DNA of 37,046 nt, taken from assembly GCA_025929315.1 (NCBI GenBank), contig JAICMI010000010.1, forward strand, positions 1-37,046, in the 5' to 3' direction. The DNA is from Frankiaceae bacterium (GTDB lineage: Bacteria; Actinomycetota; Actinomycetes; JAFAQI01). Below the pieces are notes generated by a model that did not search any database, was not told the DNA's origin, and saw nothing but the letters and a program-made list of their open reading frames with translations. Below are positions 2,336 through 13,089 of this stretch, piece after piece. How positions within the stretch are numbered: position 1 is the first letter of the stretch; each line of letters opens with the position of its first letter. Both the position numbers and the translations under genes were made by a program.

Positions 2336-3532
2336 CTAGGAGAGCTCGGTGCCGACGATGCTGACGAAGCTGACGCAGTCGCCGGGCGAGCCGCCGAGGT
2401 TGTGCGTCAGGCCGAGCTTGCGGCCGCGGTCGATTGACCCGATCTGCCGGTCGCCGGCTTCGCGGCGCAGCTGGAGCCAGCACTCGAAGAGCATCCGCAG
2501 ACCGGTCGCACCGATCGGGTGACCGAACGCCTTGAGACCGCCGTCCGGGTTGACCGGGAGCGTTCCCTCGAGGTCGAACGTGCCGGCGAGGACTTCCTTC
2601 CACGCCATGCCGCGCTCGGCGAATCCGAGGTCCTCCATCAGCACCAGCTCGGTCGGCGTGAAGCAGTCGTGCACCTCGGCCATCGCGATCTCAGCGGCAG
2701 GATCCGTGACGCCGGCCTGCTGGTAGGCATCCTGCGCCGACCGCGTGACCTCTTCGAACGTCGTGTAGTCGTAGTCCTGGTTCATCGGCCCGGTGCCCGG
2801 ACCCGCGGCGAGCGCCAGCGCCTTCACATAGAGCGGCTTGTCCGTGTACCGATGTGCATCTTCGGCGCGCACGATGACCGCCGCCGCCGAGCCGTCACTG
2901 ACGCCGGAGCAGTCCATGACGCCGAGCGGACCGGCGATGTTGGGCGAGCAGGCGATCGCCTCTTTGGGCACCTCGCGGCGGAACTGCGCGCGGGGGTTGA
3001 GCGCACCGTTGTGGTGGTTCTTCCACGCGATGCGTGTCAGCACTTCCTTCATCTGGTCCGGGTCGACGCCGTAACGCTTCGAGTAGGCAGGAACGAGCAG
3101 GCTGAACAGCGCAGGTGCCGACAGCGTCGTGTTGGTGCCGTCCGAAGCAGGCAGCGCGACGGTCAGACCGGAGAACCCGGTGTCCTTGAGCTTCTCGACA
3201 CCGGCAGCGAGTACGACGTCGTAAGCACCCGAGGCGACGGCATAGCAAGCGTTGCGGAAGGAGTCGGAGCCGGTGGCGCAGTAGTTCTCGACGCGTGTCA
3301 CCGGCTTGTACTGCAGCTGCAACGGCCGTGACAGCGTGAGACCGCTCGCGCCGGAGCCGAGCGTGCCGATCCAGGCCGCGTCGATGTCGTCCTTGGCGAC
3401 GCCGGCGCTGTCGAGCGCGTCGTAGGACGCATTGGCGACCATGTCGTCGACGCCGCGGTCCCAGTGCTCGCCGAACTCCGTGCAGCCCATGCCGATGATC
3501 GCGACCCGGTCGCGGATGCCATGTGAGGCCAT
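2336..3532 (-). CDS. SCP-x/Ltp-type thiolase with intact catalytic residues
   Basis: A 398-aa thiolase-superfamily protein. It keeps the motifs expected for C-C cleavage: Cys85 in NYCATGSDSF, the HDCFT motif at 289-293, His338 in the GHPIGATG motif (337-344) and a second cysteine in GGSPGDC (Cys386). It lacks the sterol-carrier domain of animal SCP-x, as do bacterial Ltp proteins. The ATG directly follows the TAA of the KAS-like/DUF35 gene (TAAATG), so coupling is tight. Likely role: thiolytic release of acetyl- or propionyl-CoA from a 3-oxoacyl-CoA. An alternative is a condensing role with the KAS-like partner, as in the archaeal thiolase/HMG-CoA synthase/DUF35 complex. Substrate unassigned. 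Confidence 0.85.
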   Translation of the reverse strand: MASHGIRDRVAIIGMGCTEFGEHWDRGVDDMVANASYDALDSAGVAKDDIDAAWIGTLGSGASGLTLSRPLQLQYKPVTRVENYCATGSDSFRNACYAVASGAYDVVLAAGVEKLKDTGFSGLTVALPASDGTNTTLSAPALFSLLVPAYSKRYGVDPDQMKEVLTRIAWKNHHNGALNPRAQFRREVPKEAIACSPNIAGPLGVMDCSGVSDGSAAAVIVRAEDAHRYTDKPLYVKALALAAGPGTGPMNQDYDYTTFEEVTRSAQDAYQQAGVTDPAAEIAMAEVHDCFTPTELVLMEDLGFAERGMAWKEVLAGTFDLEGTLPVNPDGGLKAFGHPIGATGLRMLFECWLQLRREAGDRQIGSIDRGRKLGLTHNLGGSPGDCVSFVSIVGTELS

Positions 3533-4936
3533 TTAGCCGCTCACCTCTTCCGTCGTCACGGGTCGAGCCTTCCAGAAGTAGTTGGCGATGCCGTTGCTCG
3601 CCTGGAAGAACCGGCGGAACGTCATCTCCACCCGATCGCCGATGGCGACGTCGTCCGGGCCCGCATCGGTCAGCTCGGTCTGGAACCGGCCGCCGCCGTC
3701 GAAGTCGACGACGACCGCGATGACCGGCGGGCTGAGCGAGTAGGTCAGCCGGTCGACCGTGTAGGTGACGACCGAGCCGGGAGTGTCGGCAAGGGGGACC
3801 GGCTCCATGTCCCCGGGATGCCCGCAGGACATGCAGGTCTGCAGCGCGGGCAGGTGGCGGGTGCCACACGACGTGCACGCACCGGCGACGAACGCGAACT
3901 TCCACGCCGAATGGCGGGCCGACACCGGAGGCGACGGTGGCTCCGGGTCGGGGCGCCGGGGCGGCTCTCGGTTGAGCATGCCGCGCCATGTCAGGAAGGT
4001 CGGATAGGGAACGGAACGCGTGCCTTGCGTCACGGTCTCGGCGAGGGCCGGCCAGCTGCGGGCCGACTCGAGTGCAGGAGTCGCGCGCAGGAGCAGTGCG
4101 TCGGCGCCCTCGGCGAGGGTGACGACCAGGATGAGGTCGCCGGCCTTGGCGCTGTCGAGAGCCTCGGCGAGCAACAGCCCCGGTTGTGCGGTGCCGGGGT
4201 TGCCGACCTGTTCCGAGACAGCACTTGCGGTGGCACCCAGCGACTTGGCGATCGCGCCGCGAGCGCGCTCGTGCAAACCGGCGACGACGACCGTCGCGAT
4301 CTCTTCGCGCGCGACACCGGCTGACTTCAGCGCCTGTTCGATCGCCTGCTGGGCGGGGGGCAGATAGGACGCCTGACCGAACCGCTCCTCCCACTGGCGG
4401 GAGTGCGTTTGGCCGGGCACCCGCCAGCGGTCGAGGAACTCGGCCGTGACGGCGGCGTGACTGACGACCTCGGCGAGACCTTCGCCGGGACCGATGAGAA
4501 ACGCGACCGCGGCGTCGCCGCCGGAGATCTCGTCGGCGCTGCCGGGCAGGCCGGTGCGGATGTCGGCCGCAACGACGAGTGCGGTGCCGTCGCCACTCAG
4601 CGCTGTCGTGAGTGCGCCGACGCTCGAGCGTGGCGCGCCGCCGAAGTCGTAGGCGGCGGTCGCAGGATCGAGGTCGAGGGCCGCGTGGATCACTGCGGCG
4701 TTGGTGCGGTCGAGATAGGTCGGCGTCGCGGTGGAGAACACGACCCGGTCGGGACGGACGTCGCGGCGGCGCAGCGCGACGCGCGCGGCCTCGACCGCGA
4801 GCGTGGTGCTGTCCTCGTCGTGAGAGGCGACCGAGCGGGTGCCTCGGCCGGCCGGTTGGCCAAGCGTCGTACCGATGTCCGCGCGGTCGAGCCGGCCCGG
4901 AGGGATGTATGCGCCGTAGCTGAGGATGGCGGCCAC
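3533..4936 (-). CDS. HMG-CoA synthase/KAS III-like domain fused to DUF35 zinc-ribbon OB-fold, catalytic Cys replaced
   Basis: A 467-aa fusion. Residues 1 to about 320 have the thiolase fold of the KAS III/HMG-CoA synthase group. Residues about 340-460 are a DUF35 domain with a Cys4 zinc ribbon (C354, C357, C368, C371) followed by an OB-fold. At the active-site turn the sequence reads YDFGGAPRSSVGAL, and Pro102 stands where the family's nucleophilic cysteine belongs. The later histidine (about 222, in AGLHERARG) and asparagine (about 246, in GNPGTAQP) remain. By itself it should not form the acyl-enzyme. It is probably a scaffold or CoA-handling partner of the thiolase encoded next, to which it is joined without a gap. 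The start is GTG with GGGAG about seven bases upstream. Confidence 0.8.
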   Translation of the reverse strand: MAAILSYGAYIPPGRLDRADIGTTLGQPAGRGTRSVASHDEDSTTLAVEAARVALRRRDVRPDRVVFSTATPTYLDRTNAAVIHAALDLDPATAAYDFGGAPRSSVGALTTALSGDGTALVVAADIRTGLPGSADEISGGDAAVAFLIGPGEGLAEVVSHAAVTAEFLDRWRVPGQTHSRQWEERFGQASYLPPAQQAIEQALKSAGVAREEIATVVVAGLHERARGAIAKSLGATASAVSEQVGNPGTAQPGLLLAEALDSAKAGDLILVVTLAEGADALLLRATPALESARSWPALAETVTQGTRSVPYPTFLTWRGMLNREPPRRPDPEPPSPPVSARHSAWKFAFVAGACTSCGTRHLPALQTCMSCGHPGDMEPVPLADTPGSVVTYTVDRLTYSLSPPVIAVVVDFDGGGRFQTELTDAGPDDVAIGDRVEMTFRRFFQASNGIANYFWKARPVTTEEVSG

Positions 4937-4988: not shown

Positions 4989-5993
4989 ATGGACGTGGGG
5001 TTCAGTGAGGGCCAGCTGGAGCTGCGCGCGGCCGTGCGCGACGTGCTCGCCAAGGAGTGCCCGCCGGCACTCGTGCGCAGCTGCCTGGACGACAGCGAGG
5101 CCTGGCGCCCCCTCTGGCAGCGCGCCGTGGATCTCGGCTGGACCGGCCTCGCGCTGCTCGACGATGACAACGGCATGGGCGTCATCGAGCTCATCGCCGT
5201 GCTCGAGGAGCTCGGTGCGGCGGCTGCACCGGTGCCGCTGCTGTCGAGCGCCGGCCTCGCCGCGGGCGCGCTGCGCGCCGCCGGCCCGGCGGCGGCCGAG
5301 TGGCAGCAGGAGCTCGCCGACGGCGCGGTCGGAGCGCTTTGCGTTGACACGAGTCCGGGGTCGCTGGATGCGAGCCGGGCGGACCTTCTCGTCGTGATCG
5401 CCGGTGGGGAGCTCTCGGTGGTGCGGCCGGGTGCGGGCGTCGTGCTCGCACCGCTGGATGCTGTCGATCCGTCCCGACCGATGGCACGTGTGACGGTCGA
5501 GACCGACGCATCGACCGAAGTCGTCCTCCCCGTGTCGGTGCCGGCGGCGTTGGCGATCCCGCTGACCGCGACAGCCGCCGAGCTGGTCGGTCTTGCGACG
5601 CGGGTGCTCGACATCGCGGTAGCTCACGCGGGCACGCGTGAGCAGTTCGACCGGGTCATCGGCTCGTTCCAGGGGATCAAGCATCGGCTCGCTGATGGTT
5701 ACGTCGCGATCGAACGCGCGCGGGGCCTCACCTACGCAGCCGCGATGCTGGCTGCCGACCCTGATGCAGATCGTGTCGACGCATGGCGTGCCGCCGCTCT
5801 GGCGAAGGCGGCCGCAGGTGACGCAGCGACCGAAACCACGCGTGCCGGCGTACAAGTGCTCGGCGCGCTCGGCATGACGTGGGAGCACGACATGCACCTC
5901 TATCTGCGCCGCGCGTGGCAGTTGTCACCGTTGCTCGGTGACAGTGCCGCGCTGTATCGCGACGCGGCGTCGTCGCTAGTGGGAGCTCGCTGA
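4989..5993 (+). CDS. Acyl-CoA dehydrogenase, small non-catalytic-type subunit
   Basis: A 334-aa acyl-CoA dehydrogenase-like protein, shorter than the usual 380-400 aa. The N-terminal helical domain (EGQLELRAAVRDVL, about 7-20) and C-terminal helices are present (TREQFDRVIGSFQGIKHR from about residue 217, then QVLGALGMTWEHDMHLYLRR near the end). The middle beta domain is reduced and the usual SEPxAGSD FAD/substrate loop is missing. This is the pattern of the partner subunit in the alpha2beta2 dehydrogenases of actinobacterial steroid catabolism, where FAD binds at the subunit interface. Its stop overlaps the start of the full-length dehydrogenase by one base (TGATG), so the two are very probably one enzyme. 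Confidence 0.85.
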   Translation: MDVGFSEGQLELRAAVRDVLAKECPPALVRSCLDDSEAWRPLWQRAVDLGWTGLALLDDDNGMGVIELIAVLEELGAAAAPVPLLSSAGLAAGALRAAGPAAAEWQQELADGAVGALCVDTSPGSLDASRADLLVVIAGGELSVVRPGAGVVLAPLDAVDPSRPMARVTVETDASTEVVLPVSVPAALAIPLTATAAELVGLATRVLDIAVAHAGTREQFDRVIGSFQGIKHRLADGYVAIERARGLTYAAAMLAADPDADRVDAWRAAALAKAAAGDAATETTRAGVQVLGALGMTWEHDMHLYLRRAWQLSPLLGDSAALYRDAASSLVGAR

Positions 5994-7120
5994 TGGACCT
6001 GCGGGAGACGGAGGAGCAGCGCGCAGTGCGCGCTGACTACGCGCAGTGGCTGAGCGACTTTCTACCTGCCGACTACTACGACAAGTACGCCGACTACCGC
6101 TGGGACTACGAGCTGCGGAAGGCCTACCAGCTGGCGTCCTTCGAAGCCGGCTGGTTGCAACCGGCATGGCCGCGCGAGCACGGTGGCCGTGCGCTCGGGC
6201 CGTTGGAAGCGCTGACGGTCCGGCTCGAGTCAGCGATGCGTGCGGCGCCGAAGCTGCCCAACATCCAAGGTGTCGGTGTCGTCGCGCCGGGCCTGCGTTC
6301 TTTTGGTACGTCGGAACAGCAGGAACGGCACCTCGTGCCGGTGCTTCGCGGCGACGAGTGGTGGGCCCTTGGCATGTCCGAGCCCGGCGCCGGCTCCGAC
6401 TTCGCCGGGCTTCGTACACGTGCGGTTCGTGACGGCGACCGCTACGTCGTCAACGGGCAGAAGATCTGGACGACGCAAGCGCACGAGTCGCGGTTCGCGA
6501 CCCTCTATGTGCGCACCGATCCGGATGCGCCGAAGCATCGCGGCATCTCCTGCTTGATCCTCGACATGGAGTCCCCCGGTGTGACGACGCGACCCATCCG
6601 CATGGCGACCATCACGGACGAGACGTTCTGCGAGGTGTTCCTCGACGACGTCGAGATTCCCGTGACGTCGGTGCTCGGCGCCGAGAACGAAGGCTGGAAG
6701 GTCGCCATGTCGTCGCTCGACCACGAGCGGGACATGATCTGGGTGATGAACTGGGTCGAGATCTCACGTGGTGTCCGCGAGGTACAGAAGCGAGGGGACT
6801 CGCTCGACGACCACCAGCTGGTCGAGCTGGGCCGGCGCATGGCGGACGCCGAGGCGTTGCGCATGACCGGCTATCGCAGCCTCACCAGCAGCTTGCGCGG
6901 TGACCGCAGCAAAGAGTTCTTCATCCTCAAGCTGCTCGGCTCGGAGTCGTTGCAGCGCACCTGGGAGCTGGCGGCTACCGTCGCCGGCGCTGACGGCCTG
7001 GCCGATGGCGCGCTGGCGTTCGAGCGCCACGACGCACTGGCCGCGACCCTCTACGGCGGCACGTCCGAGGTGCAGCGCAACATCATCGGTGAGCGGGTCC
7101 TGGGGCTTCCGAAGGGCTGA
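5993..7120 (+). CDS. Acyl-CoA dehydrogenase, catalytic subunit
   Basis: A 375-aa full-length acyl-CoA dehydrogenase that desaturates an acyl-CoA at C2-C3 using FAD. MSEPGAGSDFAGLRTRA (128-144) and NGQKIWTT (154-161) are the FAD/substrate motifs, and YGGTSEVQRNIIGERVLG is the C-terminal signature. At the position used by MCAD-type enzymes as base (YEGT) there is glycine (YGGT). The likely base is Glu245 in SLDHERDMIW, the location used in isovaleryl-CoA and ChsE-type enzymes. It overlaps the upstream small subunit by one base, supporting a heteromeric enzyme. Its substrate is probably bulky or branched, inferred from the subunit type. Confidence 0.88.
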   Translation: MDLRETEEQRAVRADYAQWLSDFLPADYYDKYADYRWDYELRKAYQLASFEAGWLQPAWPREHGGRALGPLEALTVRLESAMRAAPKLPNIQGVGVVAPGLRSFGTSEQQERHLVPVLRGDEWWALGMSEPGAGSDFAGLRTRAVRDGDRYVVNGQKIWTTQAHESRFATLYVRTDPDAPKHRGISCLILDMESPGVTTRPIRMATITDETFCEVFLDDVEIPVTSVLGAENEGWKVAMSSLDHERDMIWVMNWVEISRGVREVQKRGDSLDDHQLVELGRRMADAEALRMTGYRSLTSSLRGDRSKEFFILKLLGSESLQRTWELAATVAGADGLADGALAFERHDALAATLYGGTSEVQRNIIGERVLGLPKG

Positions 7121-8171: not shown

Positions 8172-9347
8172 ATGACCGACGTGCAGGACGACAAGGCCTT
8201 CACCCTCGACACGAGCGACGTCGATCGCTACGTCGGCAAGCCGTTGCCGACGGTGCAGCTGTCGGATCCAGTGACGGTCGGCGACATCCGCCGAGGGGCG
8301 CACGGCATGCAATATCCCAACCCGCTGCACTACGACGCCGACGCGGCGGCAGCCGGTCCGTTCGGTGCGATCATCGCGCCGCAGTCGTTTTCGGGCGCCT
8401 GCGACATCGGCCATGGTGCGAGCCCGTCGATCGTCGGCAACGTCCCCGGCTCGCACATGATCTTCGGCGGCGACGAGTGGTGGTTCTACGGTCCGCGCAT
8501 CCTGCCCGGCGACCACCTGCACAGCGAGCGCCGCTTCCTCGACTACGTCGTCAAGGACACCAAGTTCGCCGGCCCGACGATGTTCGCGCGTGGCGAGACG
8601 ACACACGTCAACCAGCGCGGTGAGAACGTCTCCCGCCAGGTCTCGACCTCTGTCCGCTACAACGCTGAGCGTGCTCGCGAGCTTGCGTTCTTCCAGCAGC
8701 AGGCACCGCGCCCGACGTGGACCGAGGACAAGCTTGCCGACATCGACAAGCAGCGCATCACCTGGATCACCACCGGTTCCGGTGGCACCGGGCGTCGCGC
8801 CGCCGACGTCACGGTCGGCGAGAAGCTCGTCAACCGTCCGGTCGGACCGCACACGATCGCGACCTTCACGAGCGAGTGGCGCGCATTCCCGTTCACCGTC
8901 TGGGGCTCACGCCCCAACGAGGTCTCCCAGAACATCAAGGAAGCCGGCTGGCTCGACGAGATGGCACAGGGCGAGATCGACGAGGTCGGCATCGACCCGA
9001 GCCAGAACGACGGCCTCTACCGGGGTCCGTCGCGCGGTCACGCCGACGCCGAGCATGCCAACCTGATCGGCATGCCCCGTGGTTATGGCTACGGCGCATC
9101 GATGGGTGCCTGGGCGCTGGACTATCTCGCCTACTGGGGTGGCGCCAAGTCGTTCGTGCGGCACTCCCGCATCCAGTACCGGTTCCCGCCGTTCGAAGGT
9201 GACGTGACGTTCATCGACGGGGAGGTCACCGACATCCGCGACGACAAGCTCCTCGCCGTGCCGGTCGCCACGATCAAGGTCACGATGACCAACCAGGACG
9301 GCAATGTGCTCGCCGCGGGTGACGCGGAGATCGAGCTGCTGCGGTAG
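8172..9347 (+). CDS. Double-hotdog MaoC/FAS1-like dehydratase (enoyl-CoA hydratase family)
   Basis: A 391-aa protein with two hotdog domains. The N-terminal half (about 15-180) has YPNPLHYDADAAAAGPFG (48-65), the usual N-P-x-H region before the central helix. The C-terminal half (about 205-390) has SRGHADAEHANLIGMPRG (287-304), followed by the YGYGASM segment. It should hydrate a 2-enoyl-CoA or dehydrate the 3-hydroxy form in the cytoplasm. It starts a tight series: the next gene, an acyl-CoA synthetase, begins six bases after its stop. This is the second hydratase system in the window besides the two-subunit one at 1397-2322, so two enoyl intermediates or two substrates are likely. Confidence 0.8.
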   Translation: MTDVQDDKAFTLDTSDVDRYVGKPLPTVQLSDPVTVGDIRRGAHGMQYPNPLHYDADAAAAGPFGAIIAPQSFSGACDIGHGASPSIVGNVPGSHMIFGGDEWWFYGPRILPGDHLHSERRFLDYVVKDTKFAGPTMFARGETTHVNQRGENVSRQVSTSVRYNAERARELAFFQQQAPRPTWTEDKLADIDKQRITWITTGSGGTGRRAADVTVGEKLVNRPVGPHTIATFTSEWRAFPFTVWGSRPNEVSQNIKEAGWLDEMAQGEIDEVGIDPSQNDGLYRGPSRGHADAEHANLIGMPRGYGYGASMGAWALDYLAYWGGAKSFVRHSRIQYRFPPFEGDVTFIDGEVTDIRDDKLLAVPVATIKVTMTNQDGNVLAAGDAEIELLR

Positions 9348-9353
9348 TCGGAC

Positions 9354-11012
9354 GTGACTACTTTCACGGGGCCGCCGGCCGAGTCCGAGGCGGGCATCGG
9401 CGCGCTCACGATCGGCGGCCTGCTCGCTGAGGCCTGTTCGGCCCACCGTGAGCTCGAAGCCGTCGCCGCCCGGGCCGCTGACGGCACGGTGACCCGGTGG
9501 ACCTACGACGACCTGTGGCGTGAGTCGCGCCGTTATGCCAAGGGCTTTCTCGCCACGGGCGTCGGTCGCGGCACTCGCGTCGGCATCCTCGTGTCCAATC
9601 GTGCCGAGTGGCTCGCCGCTGCGTTCGGTGTCGCGTTGTCCGGCGGCGTCATCGTGCCCTTCAGCACGTTCGCGACGGCAGCGGAGCTCGAGCAGCTGCT
9701 CGCTCATTCCGGTGTCAGCGTCCTGATCGCTCAGGCCGACTTTGCCCGCGCGCCACTCGAGGATCTCGCAGCTGGCGTGCCCGGACTTCTCGGTGGCACA
9801 GCGATCTACAGCCCGCGCTTCCCGCAGCTACGTCGCGTCCATGACCTCGCCGGCTCGGTCGGCGACCTGCTCGCGGCCGGTGACGTCGTACCCGACGAGG
9901 TGCTCGACGCTGCTGCTGCTGCGGTCACGCCTGCGGACGACGCGATCATCATCTACACCTCGGGTTCGACCGAGCTTCCCAAGGGCGTGCTGCACGCCAA
10001 CCGCTCGCCGGCACTGCAGTCGTGGCGGTTCGCCTCTCGCCAGCGGTTGCTGCCGGGCGACCGGGTCTACAGCGCGTTTCCGTTTTTCTGGACGGCCGGA
10101 TTCGCGATGGTGCTCGGCTCGACTCTCGCGGCCGGCGGCTGTTTGTGCATCGCCGAGACGTTCTCCGCCGAAGAGGCACTGCGCACGATGCAGGACGAGA
10201 AGGTCACGATCGTCCACGTGTGGCCGCATCACTCGGCGGCCATCCGCGACTGCCCGAACAACGCCGACTTCGACATTTCGACCGTCCGCAACGACCCGAG
10301 CCGGTTCCGTCCGAGTACAGGCGACGGCGAGCAGGTCGGTCTCGGCTCCTCGCGCGCCGGCTACGGCATGAGCGAGACGTTCACCATCGTCACGTCGGCC
10401 CCGGTCGACGCCGACCGCGACATCCTTGACGAGTCCAACGGTTTCCTGCTGCCCGGCAACGGGATGCGTATCCGCGACCCGCAGACCGGCGAGCTTCTCG
10501 GTGCCGGACAAGAGGGCGAGATCCTCGTCAAGGGCACGACGATGATGCGCGGCTACGTAGGTCTGCCGACCGAGGCCTGCTTCGATGCGGACGGGTTCTT
10601 CCACTCCGGCGACACGGGTTACATCGACGACCGCGGCCTGCTGCACTGGACCGGCCGGGTCACCGAGCTGATCAAGACCGGTGGTGCCAACGTCTCGCCG
10701 GTCGAGCTCGAGACCTTGCTTGCGAAGCATCCGGGGCTGCTCGGTGCTGCAGTCGTCGGCGTGCCGGACGACCTGCTCGGCGAAGTCGTCGTCGCTTGCG
10801 TTGTCGCCCGACCGGATGCTCAGGTCGACGAGGCCGTCGTACGTGCCTATGTCAGGGAGCACGTGTCCAGCTTCAAGGTGCCCAAGCGCGTGCTGTTCTT
10901 CGCCGACGGCGATCTGCCGAGCACCGGCAGCGACAAGGTGCAGCACGCCGAGCTTCGCCGGATTGCAGTCGAGCGCCTTGCGCACGAGTCTGCTCAGACA
11001 GCGGCGGTGTAG
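9354..11012 (+). CDS. Acyl-CoA synthetase (AMP-forming, FadD family)
   Basis: A 552-aa member of the ANL superfamily. It has the ATP P-loop YTSGSTELPKG (201-211), the A5-type motif GYGMSETF in the middle, the hinge/A8 region HWTGRVTELIKTGG, and the C-terminal lysine in PSTGSDK (Lys528). It activates a carboxylic acid to its acyl-AMP and then to the CoA thioester. The GTG start lies six bases after the hydratase stop. The following dehydrogenase begins two bases after its own stop, so the activating enzyme and the desaturase are co-transcribed. The acid is not predictable from the sequence, though the neighbours favour a cyclic or branched substrate. Confidence 0.88.
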   Translation: MTTFTGPPAESEAGIGALTIGGLLAEACSAHRELEAVAARAADGTVTRWTYDDLWRESRRYAKGFLATGVGRGTRVGILVSNRAEWLAAAFGVALSGGVIVPFSTFATAAELEQLLAHSGVSVLIAQADFARAPLEDLAAGVPGLLGGTAIYSPRFPQLRRVHDLAGSVGDLLAAGDVVPDEVLDAAAAAVTPADDAIIIYTSGSTELPKGVLHANRSPALQSWRFASRQRLLPGDRVYSAFPFFWTAGFAMVLGSTLAAGGCLCIAETFSAEEALRTMQDEKVTIVHVWPHHSAAIRDCPNNADFDISTVRNDPSRFRPSTGDGEQVGLGSSRAGYGMSETFTIVTSAPVDADRDILDESNGFLLPGNGMRIRDPQTGELLGAGQEGEILVKGTTMMRGYVGLPTEACFDADGFFHSGDTGYIDDRGLLHWTGRVTELIKTGGANVSPVELETLLAKHPGLLGAAVVGVPDDLLGEVVVACVVARPDAQVDEAVVRAYVREHVSSFKVPKRVLFFADGDLPSTGSDKVQHAELRRIAVERLAHESAQTAAV

Positions 11013-11014
11013 CC

Positions 11015-12163
11015 GTGGACTACGACCTCGGGCCGGACGCAGAGGCGCTTCGTACGAAGCTGCGCGCGTTGATCGCGGCACACATCCCCGATGACTTCCT
11101 CGGCGCGTGCACGGACGATCCCGAGGACCTGGCGCTCACGGAGCGCTTCTGCAAGACGCTTGCCGCGGACAACCTCCTCGCACTTGCCTGGCCGGAAGAG
11201 TTCGGTGGCGGCGGTGGCGACGTCTGGCAGCAGACGGTCGTCCGCGAGGAGATGTGGGCGCACCACGAGCCGCGCGGGCCGCAGTACATGGGCATCAACT
11301 GGGTCGGGCCGGCGATCATGCGGCACGGCTCTGATGTGCAAAGGGGCAAGCACCTGCCGCCGATCGCCGACGGCGAGGTGATCTGGTGCCAGGGCTTCAG
11401 CGAGCCCGAGGCCGGTTCCGACCTGGCCTCGATGCGCACCCAGGCGACGGTCGATGGCGACGGGTGGGTCATCAACGGGCAGAAGGTCTGGACGTCCTAC
11501 GCCTTGATGGCGCAGTGGTGCGTGCTCGCCGCCTGCACCGACCCGACGGCATCCGCCTCACGCCGCATCACCTTGTTCCTCCTCCCGATGGATCGGGCGG
11601 GTGTCACGACGCGCGGCATTCCGTCCATGCTCGGCCCGCACCACCTCAACGAGCTGTTCCTGGACAACGTGCGGGTCGGTCCGGACGACGTCCTGGGGCA
11701 AGTCGGTGGTGGGTGGCGAGTCATCAAGGACGCGCTTGCCTATGAACGCGTGGGCATCGCGCGCTATGCGCGCTGCGACTCGCTGCTCGCCCGGCTGCGC
11801 GAATCCCTCGGCGATGAGTGGGACCGGCTGCCCGGTGGACTTCGGAGCCGCTGGGTTCGCGCGATGATCGACGTCCGCGTTGCCCGGTTGCTCGCCTACA
11901 CCGCGGTCGCGCAGCAGGAGAGCGGGCAGCCGGACGACGCGACCGCGAGCATCGCTCGCATCGCGACGACGCGCACCGACCAGTCGGTCGCCGAGCTGCT
12001 GATGGAAGCGGTGGGGCCGGACGGCCTCGAGGGCGATCGGCACGCCGTCCTGCACGGGGCGGTCGACGACCACTGGCGCTATGCGCAGGCCGCGACCGTT
12101 GCGTCCGGCACGATCGAGGTGCAGCGGATGCTCGTCGCACGTTCGGTGCTGGGCGGCCGCTGA
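11015..12163 (+). CDS. Acyl-CoA dehydrogenase, catalytic subunit of a second heteromeric pair
   Basis: A 382-aa acyl-CoA dehydrogenase. FSEPEAGSDLASMRT (128-142) and NGQKVWTSYA (154-163) are the FAD/substrate motifs, and ASGTIEVQRMLVARSVLG is the C-terminal signature. The likely catalytic base is Glu244 in LAYERVGIAR. The GTG start at 11015 is chosen because it follows the synthetase stop by two bases and aligns with the normal family N terminus; the longer upstream frame lies inside the synthetase gene. Its stop overlaps the start of the next, short dehydrogenase by one base, repeating in reverse order the small/large arrangement at 4989-7120. Confidence 0.88.
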   Translation: MDYDLGPDAEALRTKLRALIAAHIPDDFLGACTDDPEDLALTERFCKTLAADNLLALAWPEEFGGGGGDVWQQTVVREEMWAHHEPRGPQYMGINWVGPAIMRHGSDVQRGKHLPPIADGEVIWCQGFSEPEAGSDLASMRTQATVDGDGWVINGQKVWTSYALMAQWCVLAACTDPTASASRRITLFLLPMDRAGVTTRGIPSMLGPHHLNELFLDNVRVGPDDVLGQVGGGWRVIKDALAYERVGIARYARCDSLLARLRESLGDEWDRLPGGLRSRWVRAMIDVRVARLLAYTAVAQQESGQPDDATASIARIATTRTDQSVAELLMEAVGPDGLEGDRHAVLHGAVDDHWRYAQAATVASGTIEVQRMLVARSVLGGR

Positions 12164-13089
12164 TGCTCACCCGACTGCCCAGTGACGTGGTCGCGTTCGG
12201 CGCGAGTGCGCGGGACCGGTTTGCCGCGCTGGGTGGTGTGGGGCTGGCGTTGCGCGCTGAGACCGACCCGGCTGCACGAGCCGCCGCAGGCGAAGCATTG
12301 GCCGAGCTCGGCGCCTGGGACATCGACGTGCGGGCCGATGCCGACGAGCTTCTGGCGGCCGCCGAGCTGTGCCGGGTCGCCGGCACGGTGGTGTTGCCCT
12401 ATCCACTGATCGAGCAGCTGCTCGCCGTGGAGGGGAACCGACTCGCGCTCGTCGACCCGCGACGCCCGCGGATCGACCACGGCGACCTTGATGGCGGCTG
12501 GCTTGCGGCCGATCTCGACGGCAACACGAGGTCCGCCGTGACCGCGACACGGCGGCCGGCAAAGCTCGGTCCGTTCGTCACCCGCGCCGAGCTGGACGCG
12601 GAAAGCGCGCCGGTGCCGCTCGGCGATGTCGACCGTCATCTCGTGCTCGGGTCGTGGCGGCTGCTCGGCGGGGTGGACGCAGCTCTCGCCCTGGTGACGG
12701 AGCACATCAAGGTGCGCAAACAGTTCGGGCAGGCACTCGCGGAGTTTCAGACGGTCCGGTTTGCCCTTGCGGACGCGGTCGTGGCGCAGCGGGGTCTCGA
12801 AGAGCTCGTCAAATACACGACCTGGCGGCTCGGCGTCGCGACGCCGGTGGCGCGTCACGCCGACGCCATCGCGCTGCGGTTGCATGCCGACGAGGTGGCC
12901 ACGCAGGTGCTGCGCTGCTGTCATCAGCTGCTCGGTGCCATCGGGTTCTGTGACGAGCACGATGTGTCCGTGCTGGATCGGCACATGCAAGCGCTGCTCC
13001 GGCTGCCGCATTCGGCGGAAGCCCTCGCCGAGCGCCTCGTGCCGGCGGTGTCGGCTGGCGAGCTCGAGAGCCTGTTCGTCACCGCCTGA
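12163..13089 (+). CDS. Acyl-CoA dehydrogenase, short partner subunit
   Basis: A 308-aa degenerate acyl-CoA dehydrogenase. The C-terminal helical domain is recognisable (TEHIKVRKQFGQALAEFQTV and HQLLGAIGFCDEHDVSVLDR), while the middle domain is short and the SEPxAGSD motif is missing. It overlaps the full-length subunit upstream by one base (TGATG). By analogy with the alpha2beta2 enzymes of steroid degradation it probably supplies part of the FAD site. Its 3' end overlaps the convergent amidase gene by 11 bases. Confidence 0.83.
   Translation: MLTRLPSDVVAFGASARDRFAALGGVGLALRAETDPAARAAAGEALAELGAWDIDVRADADELLAAAELCRVAGTVVLPYPLIEQLLAVEGNRLALVDPRRPRIDHGDLDGGWLAADLDGNTRSAVTATRRPAKLGPFVTRAELDAESAPVPLGDVDRHLVLGSWRLLGGVDAALALVTEHIKVRKQFGQALAEFQTVRFALADAVVAQRGLEELVKYTTWRLGVATPVARHADAIALRLHADEVATQVLRCCHQLLGAIGFCDEHDVSVLDRHMQALLRLPHSAEALAERLVPAVSAGELESLFVTA

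Follow-up and report, generated by a model that had tools for sequence, protein, structure and literature searches.

A fused HMG-CoA synthase-like/DUF35 protein with replaced catalytic residues as a probable partner subunit of the adjoining thiolase

We analysed a stretch of 37,046 nucleotides (the window) from a 68%-complete actinobacterial assembly. The gene at 3533-4936 probably encodes a dead-synthase scaffold that, judged from residue patterns and gene arrangement, would form one enzyme with the thiolase encoded beside it and serve C-C cleavage of bulky 3-ketoacyl-CoA substrates. An earlier note had suggested that the protein serves the thiolase in a structural or docking capacity without being catalytic itself, and this is supported here: catalytic residues are lost throughout the family, selection is purifying, the 2 genes are almost always adjacent, and 3 solved complexes have a related composition, 2 of them with an HMG-CoA synthase (HMGCS)-like subunit without Cys. 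The features of the locus are collected in Table 1.

Table 1. Features of the fusion locus, in window coordinates
Feature	Position	Strand	Description or basis
Fusion ORF	3533..4936	-	467 aa; HMGCS/KAS III-like domain + DUF35 (zinc ribbon + OB fold)
HMGCS/KAS III-like domain, ~residues 1-322	3971..4936	-	PRK04262, 6ESQ/PhlA alignments, AlphaFold2 + Foldseek
DUF35 domain, residues 341-463	3548..3916	-	Pfam OB_ChsH2_C + zf-ChsH2; 6ESQ chain E match
Cys4 zinc ribbon C354/C357/C368/C371	3824..3877	-	Fusion protein sequence, family comparison
Pro102 codon, place of nucleophilic Cys	4631..4633	-	Alignment with 6ESQ HMGCS, PhlA (Gly), MucABC subunit (Glu)
Ala219 codon, place of catalytic His	4280..4282	-	Alignment
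Asn246 codon, FabH-type Asn position	4199..4201	-	Alignment; not conserved in family
Thiolase, 398 aa (NCBIfam PRK06157 equivalog)	2336..3532	-	Cys85, HDCF288-291, GHP337-339; obligate gene neighbour
MaoC-type hydratase subunit, 170 aa	1810..2322	-	Nearest solved relatives ChsH1/ChsH2; same operon, facultative companion
MaoC-type hydratase subunit, 138 aa	1397..1813	-	Nearest solved relatives ChsH1/ChsH2; same operon, facultative companion
Acyl-CoA dehydrogenase pair, divergent	4989..7120	+	4989-5993 IpdE2-like, 5993-7120 pimC-like

Domains and catalytic residues of the fusion protein

The reading frame, whose coordinates and strand had been given correctly before, specifies a KAS-like domain joined to DUF35 by a Pro-rich linker. 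The N-terminal domain matched the archaeal HMGCS model PRK04262 of NCBIfam (2.5e-42, below the cutoff of the model), and the C-terminal domain matched OB_ChsH2_C (5.4e-12) together with zf-ChsH2 in Pfam. An HMGCS/KAS III fold was confirmed by Foldseek comparison of an AlphaFold2 model (mean pLDDT 84) with 6ESQ (E=7e-19, probability 1.00). In this monomer model, a conserved loop around W171-R172 was predicted poorly. The best PDB matches of the family profile were PhlA (top), archaeal HMGCS and a subunit of MucABC, each from a complex with a thiolase-like partner, and Foldseek recovered the same 3 relatives. A PADLOC search gave no match.

The fold is retained, but none of the 3 residues that an active HMG-CoA synthase or KAS III would carry (Cys, His and Glu) is in place. 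In the alignment with the HMGCS of 6ESQ, the nucleophilic Cys is replaced by Pro102, as had been proposed, the HMGCS Glu by Ala70, and the catalytic His by Ala219. The accompanying claim that the His and Asn positions remain stands only for Asn246, which occupies the FabH-type position; the His is gone, and His222 aligns with the Asn of the HQPN motif. A different Cys serving as nucleophile, hidden by misalignment, was considered and rejected, as 3 independent profile or pairwise alignments all give Pro102 and the loop in the window has no Cys. About 75 relatives from Actinomycetota, Proteobacteria, Chloroflexota, Myxococcota and haloarchaea have L, A, I, P, V or T at this position, occasionally G or Q, and never Cys, which makes its absence a fixed trait of the family and not a lesion of the window gene. 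The remaining catalytic positions also vary across the family: T/A/S/P/Y/V for His, T/A/S/Q/P/V/L for Glu, and, in many relatives, N, Q, D, Y, A, F or another residue for Asn246. With Cys, His and Glu all replaced, the sequence speaks against a classical synthase reaction. The Mycobacterium avium relative has Gly at the nucleophile site and one Cys 2 positions upstream.

The fusion gene is under purifying selection, and its dead KAS domain is kept as strictly as DUF35: dN/dS between the window and its nearest orthologue was 0.105 (KAS domain), 0.109 (DUF35) and 0.078 (thiolase). The value of 0.105 rules out a decaying pseudogene. Seven residues of the KAS-like domain (D97, D125, R127, E136, D141, R172 and W182) are nearly invariant, and the 6 polar ones among them could, from their conservation, serve another activity. 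Whether the domain is still an enzyme of different chemistry, for example a decarboxylase or lyase acting through residues other than Cys, His and Asn, was considered in this light. Gln stands at the Cys position in 3 proteobacterial relatives, and such a Gln is known from Gln-type decarboxylating ketosynthases. We nevertheless regard this as quite improbable, because the Cys, His and Asn positions vary freely with no consistent replacement catalyst there, and PhlA provides a precedent for a non-catalytic subunit. The 3 Gln-bearing relatives (L091, L093 and L097) are on plasmids of Proteobacteria, and the catalytic His is absent from them.

A fused homologue that still has the Cys, as an ancestor might, was looked for and none was found. 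Fused homologues adjoining thiolases occur in haloarchaea (L096 7992-9407 of Haladaptatus, L095 and L099), where Thr takes the place of Cys. By their residues, these proteins possibly stand midway from active archaeal HMGCS to the dead family; L096, which alone keeps HQPN, looks like an intermediate in residue loss.

The DUF35 half of the window protein was found to keep its Cys4 zinc ribbon, as had been noted before. Among 54 relatives in which the ribbon segment was tallied, at least 4 Cys were present in 23 and no Cys in 29, and the ribbon was deleted in 2, including a paralogue in the genome of the window (G000:C173) in which hardly any sequence separates the KAS domain from the OB fold. 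Copies lacking the ribbon seem to predominate in the window's own family. The Cys-free ribbons come mostly from one clade rich in Acidimicrobiia. Homologues L008-L022, L024 and L026, from Acidimicrobiia and related bacteria, have all ribbon Cys ligands replaced at unchanged ribbon length and, on this pattern, are a natural series of DUF35 domains predicted to be zinc-free. Since the ribbon is lost or deleted in more than half of the 54 relatives while the OB part is constant, zinc appears to be dispensable in the family, and the role of the ribbon, whatever its nature, is apparently not universal.

Pairing with an intact thiolase

All 3 modules (thiolase, HMGCS-like and DUF35) are encoded together in the window, on the minus strand, with the TAA stop of the fusion gene followed directly by the thiolase ATG. 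The thiolase is intact, in agreement with the earlier note, with Cys85, HDCF (288-291), GHP (337-339) and also NLGG (378-381). The nucleophilic Cys, HDCF and GHP were present in all partner thiolases whose sequence could be followed throughout, and these motifs mark the subunit as an active-type thiolase in its predicted sequence. The combination of Cys and HDCF is the SCP2-thiolase pattern expected for thiolytic cleavage, unlike that of the YDxF/Y aldolases.

We surveyed the pairing in 397 Actinomycetota genomes, of which 64 matched the family profile and 56 had a close thiolase. The fusion gene lay immediately upstream on the same strand at 66 of the 69 thiolase places, with a median of 26 bp between matches. 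Two of the other places are at contig ends, and the third (G136), initially a candidate for a thiolase without a fusion, proved on inspection to adjoin a more divergent fusion gene, bringing the total to 67 of 69. The nearest orthologue (L007, from a MAG labelled Frankiaceae; 85%) has the same 4 genes in the same order. The pair was also found in relatives on plasmids of Rhodococcus, M. avium, Variovorax, Azoarcus, Sphingobium, Novosphingobium and haloarchaea, the last with the reverse arrangement, the thiolase being upstream of the fusion. One actinobacterial family (f22) encodes the Cys-less KAS, the thiolase and DUF35 in separate genes that lie side by side; the components of the fusion thus also occur together unfused, which is a classical pointer to physical association.

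A second copy in the genome of the window, about 50% identical, is represented by G000:C173 (L059) and G000:C108 (L060) beside its own thiolase; the gene appears to be split across 2 contig ends. A 1121-aa frame upstream in L079, and similar long open frames elsewhere, were taken as artefacts of high GC content.

We propose that the 3533-4936 product is a pseudo-synthase subunit, with a dead HMGCS/KAS III-like half that carries DUF35 in cis. In known complexes, DUF35 links the thiolase to the HMGCS subunit and takes part in binding CoA. The fusion protein and the neighbouring thiolase would likewise assemble into a heteromer resembling PhlACB or the archaeal complex, in which the dead KAS domain and DUF35 may shape a shared tunnel for CoA and substrate and stabilise the thiolase. 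The chemistry would be carried out by Cys85 and the Cys of HDCF, presumably in the direction of thiolytic C-C cleavage, on a bulky and probably cyclic or branched 3-ketoacyl-CoA from a pathway resembling beta-oxidation.

Degradative context of the gene pair

The thiolase gene is followed after 13 bp by the MaoC-type hydratase pair, whose genes overlap by 4 bp, and then by an MFS gene on the same strand. The divergent acyl-CoA dehydrogenase pair is likely to act in the same pathway as the fusion and the thiolase, and acyl-CoA dehydrogenases are found near the gene pair in many relatives, along with MaoC hydratases related to ChsH1/ChsH2, CoA ligases and CoA transferases. The idea that the complex might reach to the hydratases fared less well: the MaoC pair is present with the module in the window, in L007 and at the majority of loci from one Acidimicrobiia clade, but many other loci have none near it. 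As neither the MaoC nor the acyl-CoA dehydrogenase partners are constant, the pathway differs between hosts. A second catabolic block of the window (8172-13089) encodes a 391-aa FAS1_DH-type hydratase-domain protein, an acyl-CoA ligase and another large/small acyl-CoA dehydrogenase pair (11087-12163 and 12160-13089).

These neighbours bear on the view that the pair is a reversible acyltransferase or condensing complex like PhlACB or MucABC, transferring an acyl group onto a carbon acceptor instead of acting as a degradative thiolase. Thiolase chemistry is reversible, the closest PDB subunits come from PhlACB, MucABC and the archaeal biosynthetic complex, and the fusion shares with PhlACB a Cys-less HMGCS-like component. 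However, the genes nearby (acyl-CoA dehydrogenases, hydratases, CoA ligases or transferases; at other loci, ring dioxygenases or an estrogen-degradation set) fit the catabolism of CoA thioesters, and we consider an acyltransferase or condensing role unlikely.

At 2 plasmid loci, L089 (Rhodococcus opacus PD630 pRoPD630_1) and L090 (M. avium pP7a), the pair lies right behind genes for a CoA ligase and for the alpha and beta subunits of a ring-hydroxylating dioxygenase. This layout is like that of the ibuprofen ipf cluster, with a true thiolase and a dead KAS-DUF35 protein where ipf has IpfDE, and the loci perhaps serve an uncharacterised aryl-acyl-CoA pathway. The likeness could suggest a retro-aldolase pair (Ltp2-ChsH2, Sal-Shy or IpfDE type) with a 3-hydroxyacyl-CoA as its substrate, as could the pairing of DUF35 with a thiolase fold, the adjoining ChsH1/ChsH2-like hydratases, and the lack of an immediately adjacent dehydrogenase in the window. 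The aldolases Ltp2 and Sal have a YDxF/Y motif (PMC12329534). IpfD and 2 Ltp-type proteins, 23-27% identical to the window thiolase, are without the nucleophilic Cys and the rest of the Cys/HDCF/GHP set and have YDAF or YDHF, whereas the window thiolase possesses the full set and thus neither aldolase hallmark. IpfE, moreover, is a stand-alone DUF35 protein of 132 aa, and IpfD is without the thiolase residues, so that IpfDE was also rejected as a characterised member of the family. A retro-aldolase is accordingly highly improbable.

The most revealing context is a cluster on plasmid p3 of Novosphingobium ES2-1 with genes for an acyl-CoA dehydrogenase, an SDR, the fusion, the thiolase, hydratases, a lipid-transfer protein, DUF35 and a P450; an indolepyruvate ferredoxin oxidoreductase is encoded on the other strand. 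The fused homologue of this cluster is Cys-less and next to the thiolase. The order of these genes matches the edc operon of N. tardaugens (PMC7793797). The estradiol edc cluster includes an 'HMG-CoA synthase', EGO55_13555, that was placed in a separate HMGCS group and assigned no step by its authors, who suggested a possible thiolase activity of its own and not a scaffold (PMC7793797). From gene order alone, we infer that EGO55_13555 is the fused dead-synthase protein and serves the adjacent thiolase EGO55_13550. If so, this would suggest an explanation for the presence of an 'anabolic' HMG-CoA synthase in an operon for estrogen degradation.

The pair is common in environmental Actinomycetota and is carried by large plasmids in strains of Rhodococcus, Sphingobium, Novosphingobium, Variovorax and Azoarcus, but its role is hidden by the annotation of the fusion as OB-fold domain-containing protein, HMG-CoA synthase or KAS III. 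A broader reading, for which we see an even chance, is that Bacteria and haloarchaea share an undescribed family of degradative thiolases, each an obligate heteromer with the fused dead HMGCS/DUF35 protein, that cleave C-C bonds of steroids, estrogens and other cyclic acids, and that the 'HMG-CoA synthase' genes of such clusters are misassigned. If the scaffold reading is right, the family would represent a class of dead-enzyme scaffolds with many natural variants, the ribbon being kept, stripped of its ligands or deleted.

Comparison with known thiolase complexes

The archaeal thiolase/HMGCS/DUF35 complex (6ESQ) consists of the same 3 modules and is the best PDB match of both the fusion and the thiolase, with Cys85 of the window thiolase conserved. 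The archaeal HMGCS is active (Cys114, Glu82), produces HMG-CoA for the mevalonate pathway, and belongs to a complex of unfused subunits (PMC6392133); in the window, Cys, Glu and His are lost and the modules are fused. In an unrooted tree, the fused family was separate from HMGCS, PhlA and Muc, and PhlA grouped with archaeal HMGCS; several branches are long and the deep order is unsure.

The possibility raised in the earlier note, that such a complex is not yet described, is not supported, because PhlACB already combines a thiolase-like protein, a Cys-less HMGCS-like protein and DUF35 (PpATase of Pseudomonas protegens; 5M3K, 5MG5; relative 9SKH). PhlA has neither the Cys nor the Glu, catalysis is by PhlC only, and all 3 proteins are needed (PMC6392133). 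The nucleophile of PhlC is Cys88, compared with Cys85 in the window. PhlACB differs in being encoded by 3 separate genes and in catalysing CoA-independent C-acyl transfer in antibiotic biosynthesis (a Friedel-Crafts acyltransferase), whereas the window pair has a fused HMGCS-like and DUF35 protein, a PRK06157-type thiolase and beta-oxidation gene neighbours. MucABC of Streptococcus (9VBO, 9VBT), the top Foldseek match, also has an HMGCS-like subunit without Cys, with Glu in its place; it is a natural-product acetyltransferase, with 20% identity and a long branch in the tree.

In catabolic C-C cleavage, BbsAB, Ltp2-ChsH2, Sal-Shy and IpfDE combine a thiolase-fold enzyme with a DUF35 protein (PMC12329534, PMC9195938). 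These systems, which include the benzoylsuccinyl-CoA thiolase BbsAB, have no HMGCS-like part, and their DUF35 either stands alone or is joined to a MaoC hydratase. The SSO2064 paper described an inactive thiolase-superfamily member in the SSO2064 operon and DUF35 fused to thiolase-superfamily proteins (PMC2954200). In the literature searched, we found no description of the fused HMGCS-DUF35 protein, its breadth or its catabolic setting, and the fused degradative version thus appears to be undescribed. The type of complex is already known from the archaeal thiolase/HMGCS/DUF35 assembly, PhlACB and MucABC, and what appears to be new is a fused, catabolic and widespread branch.
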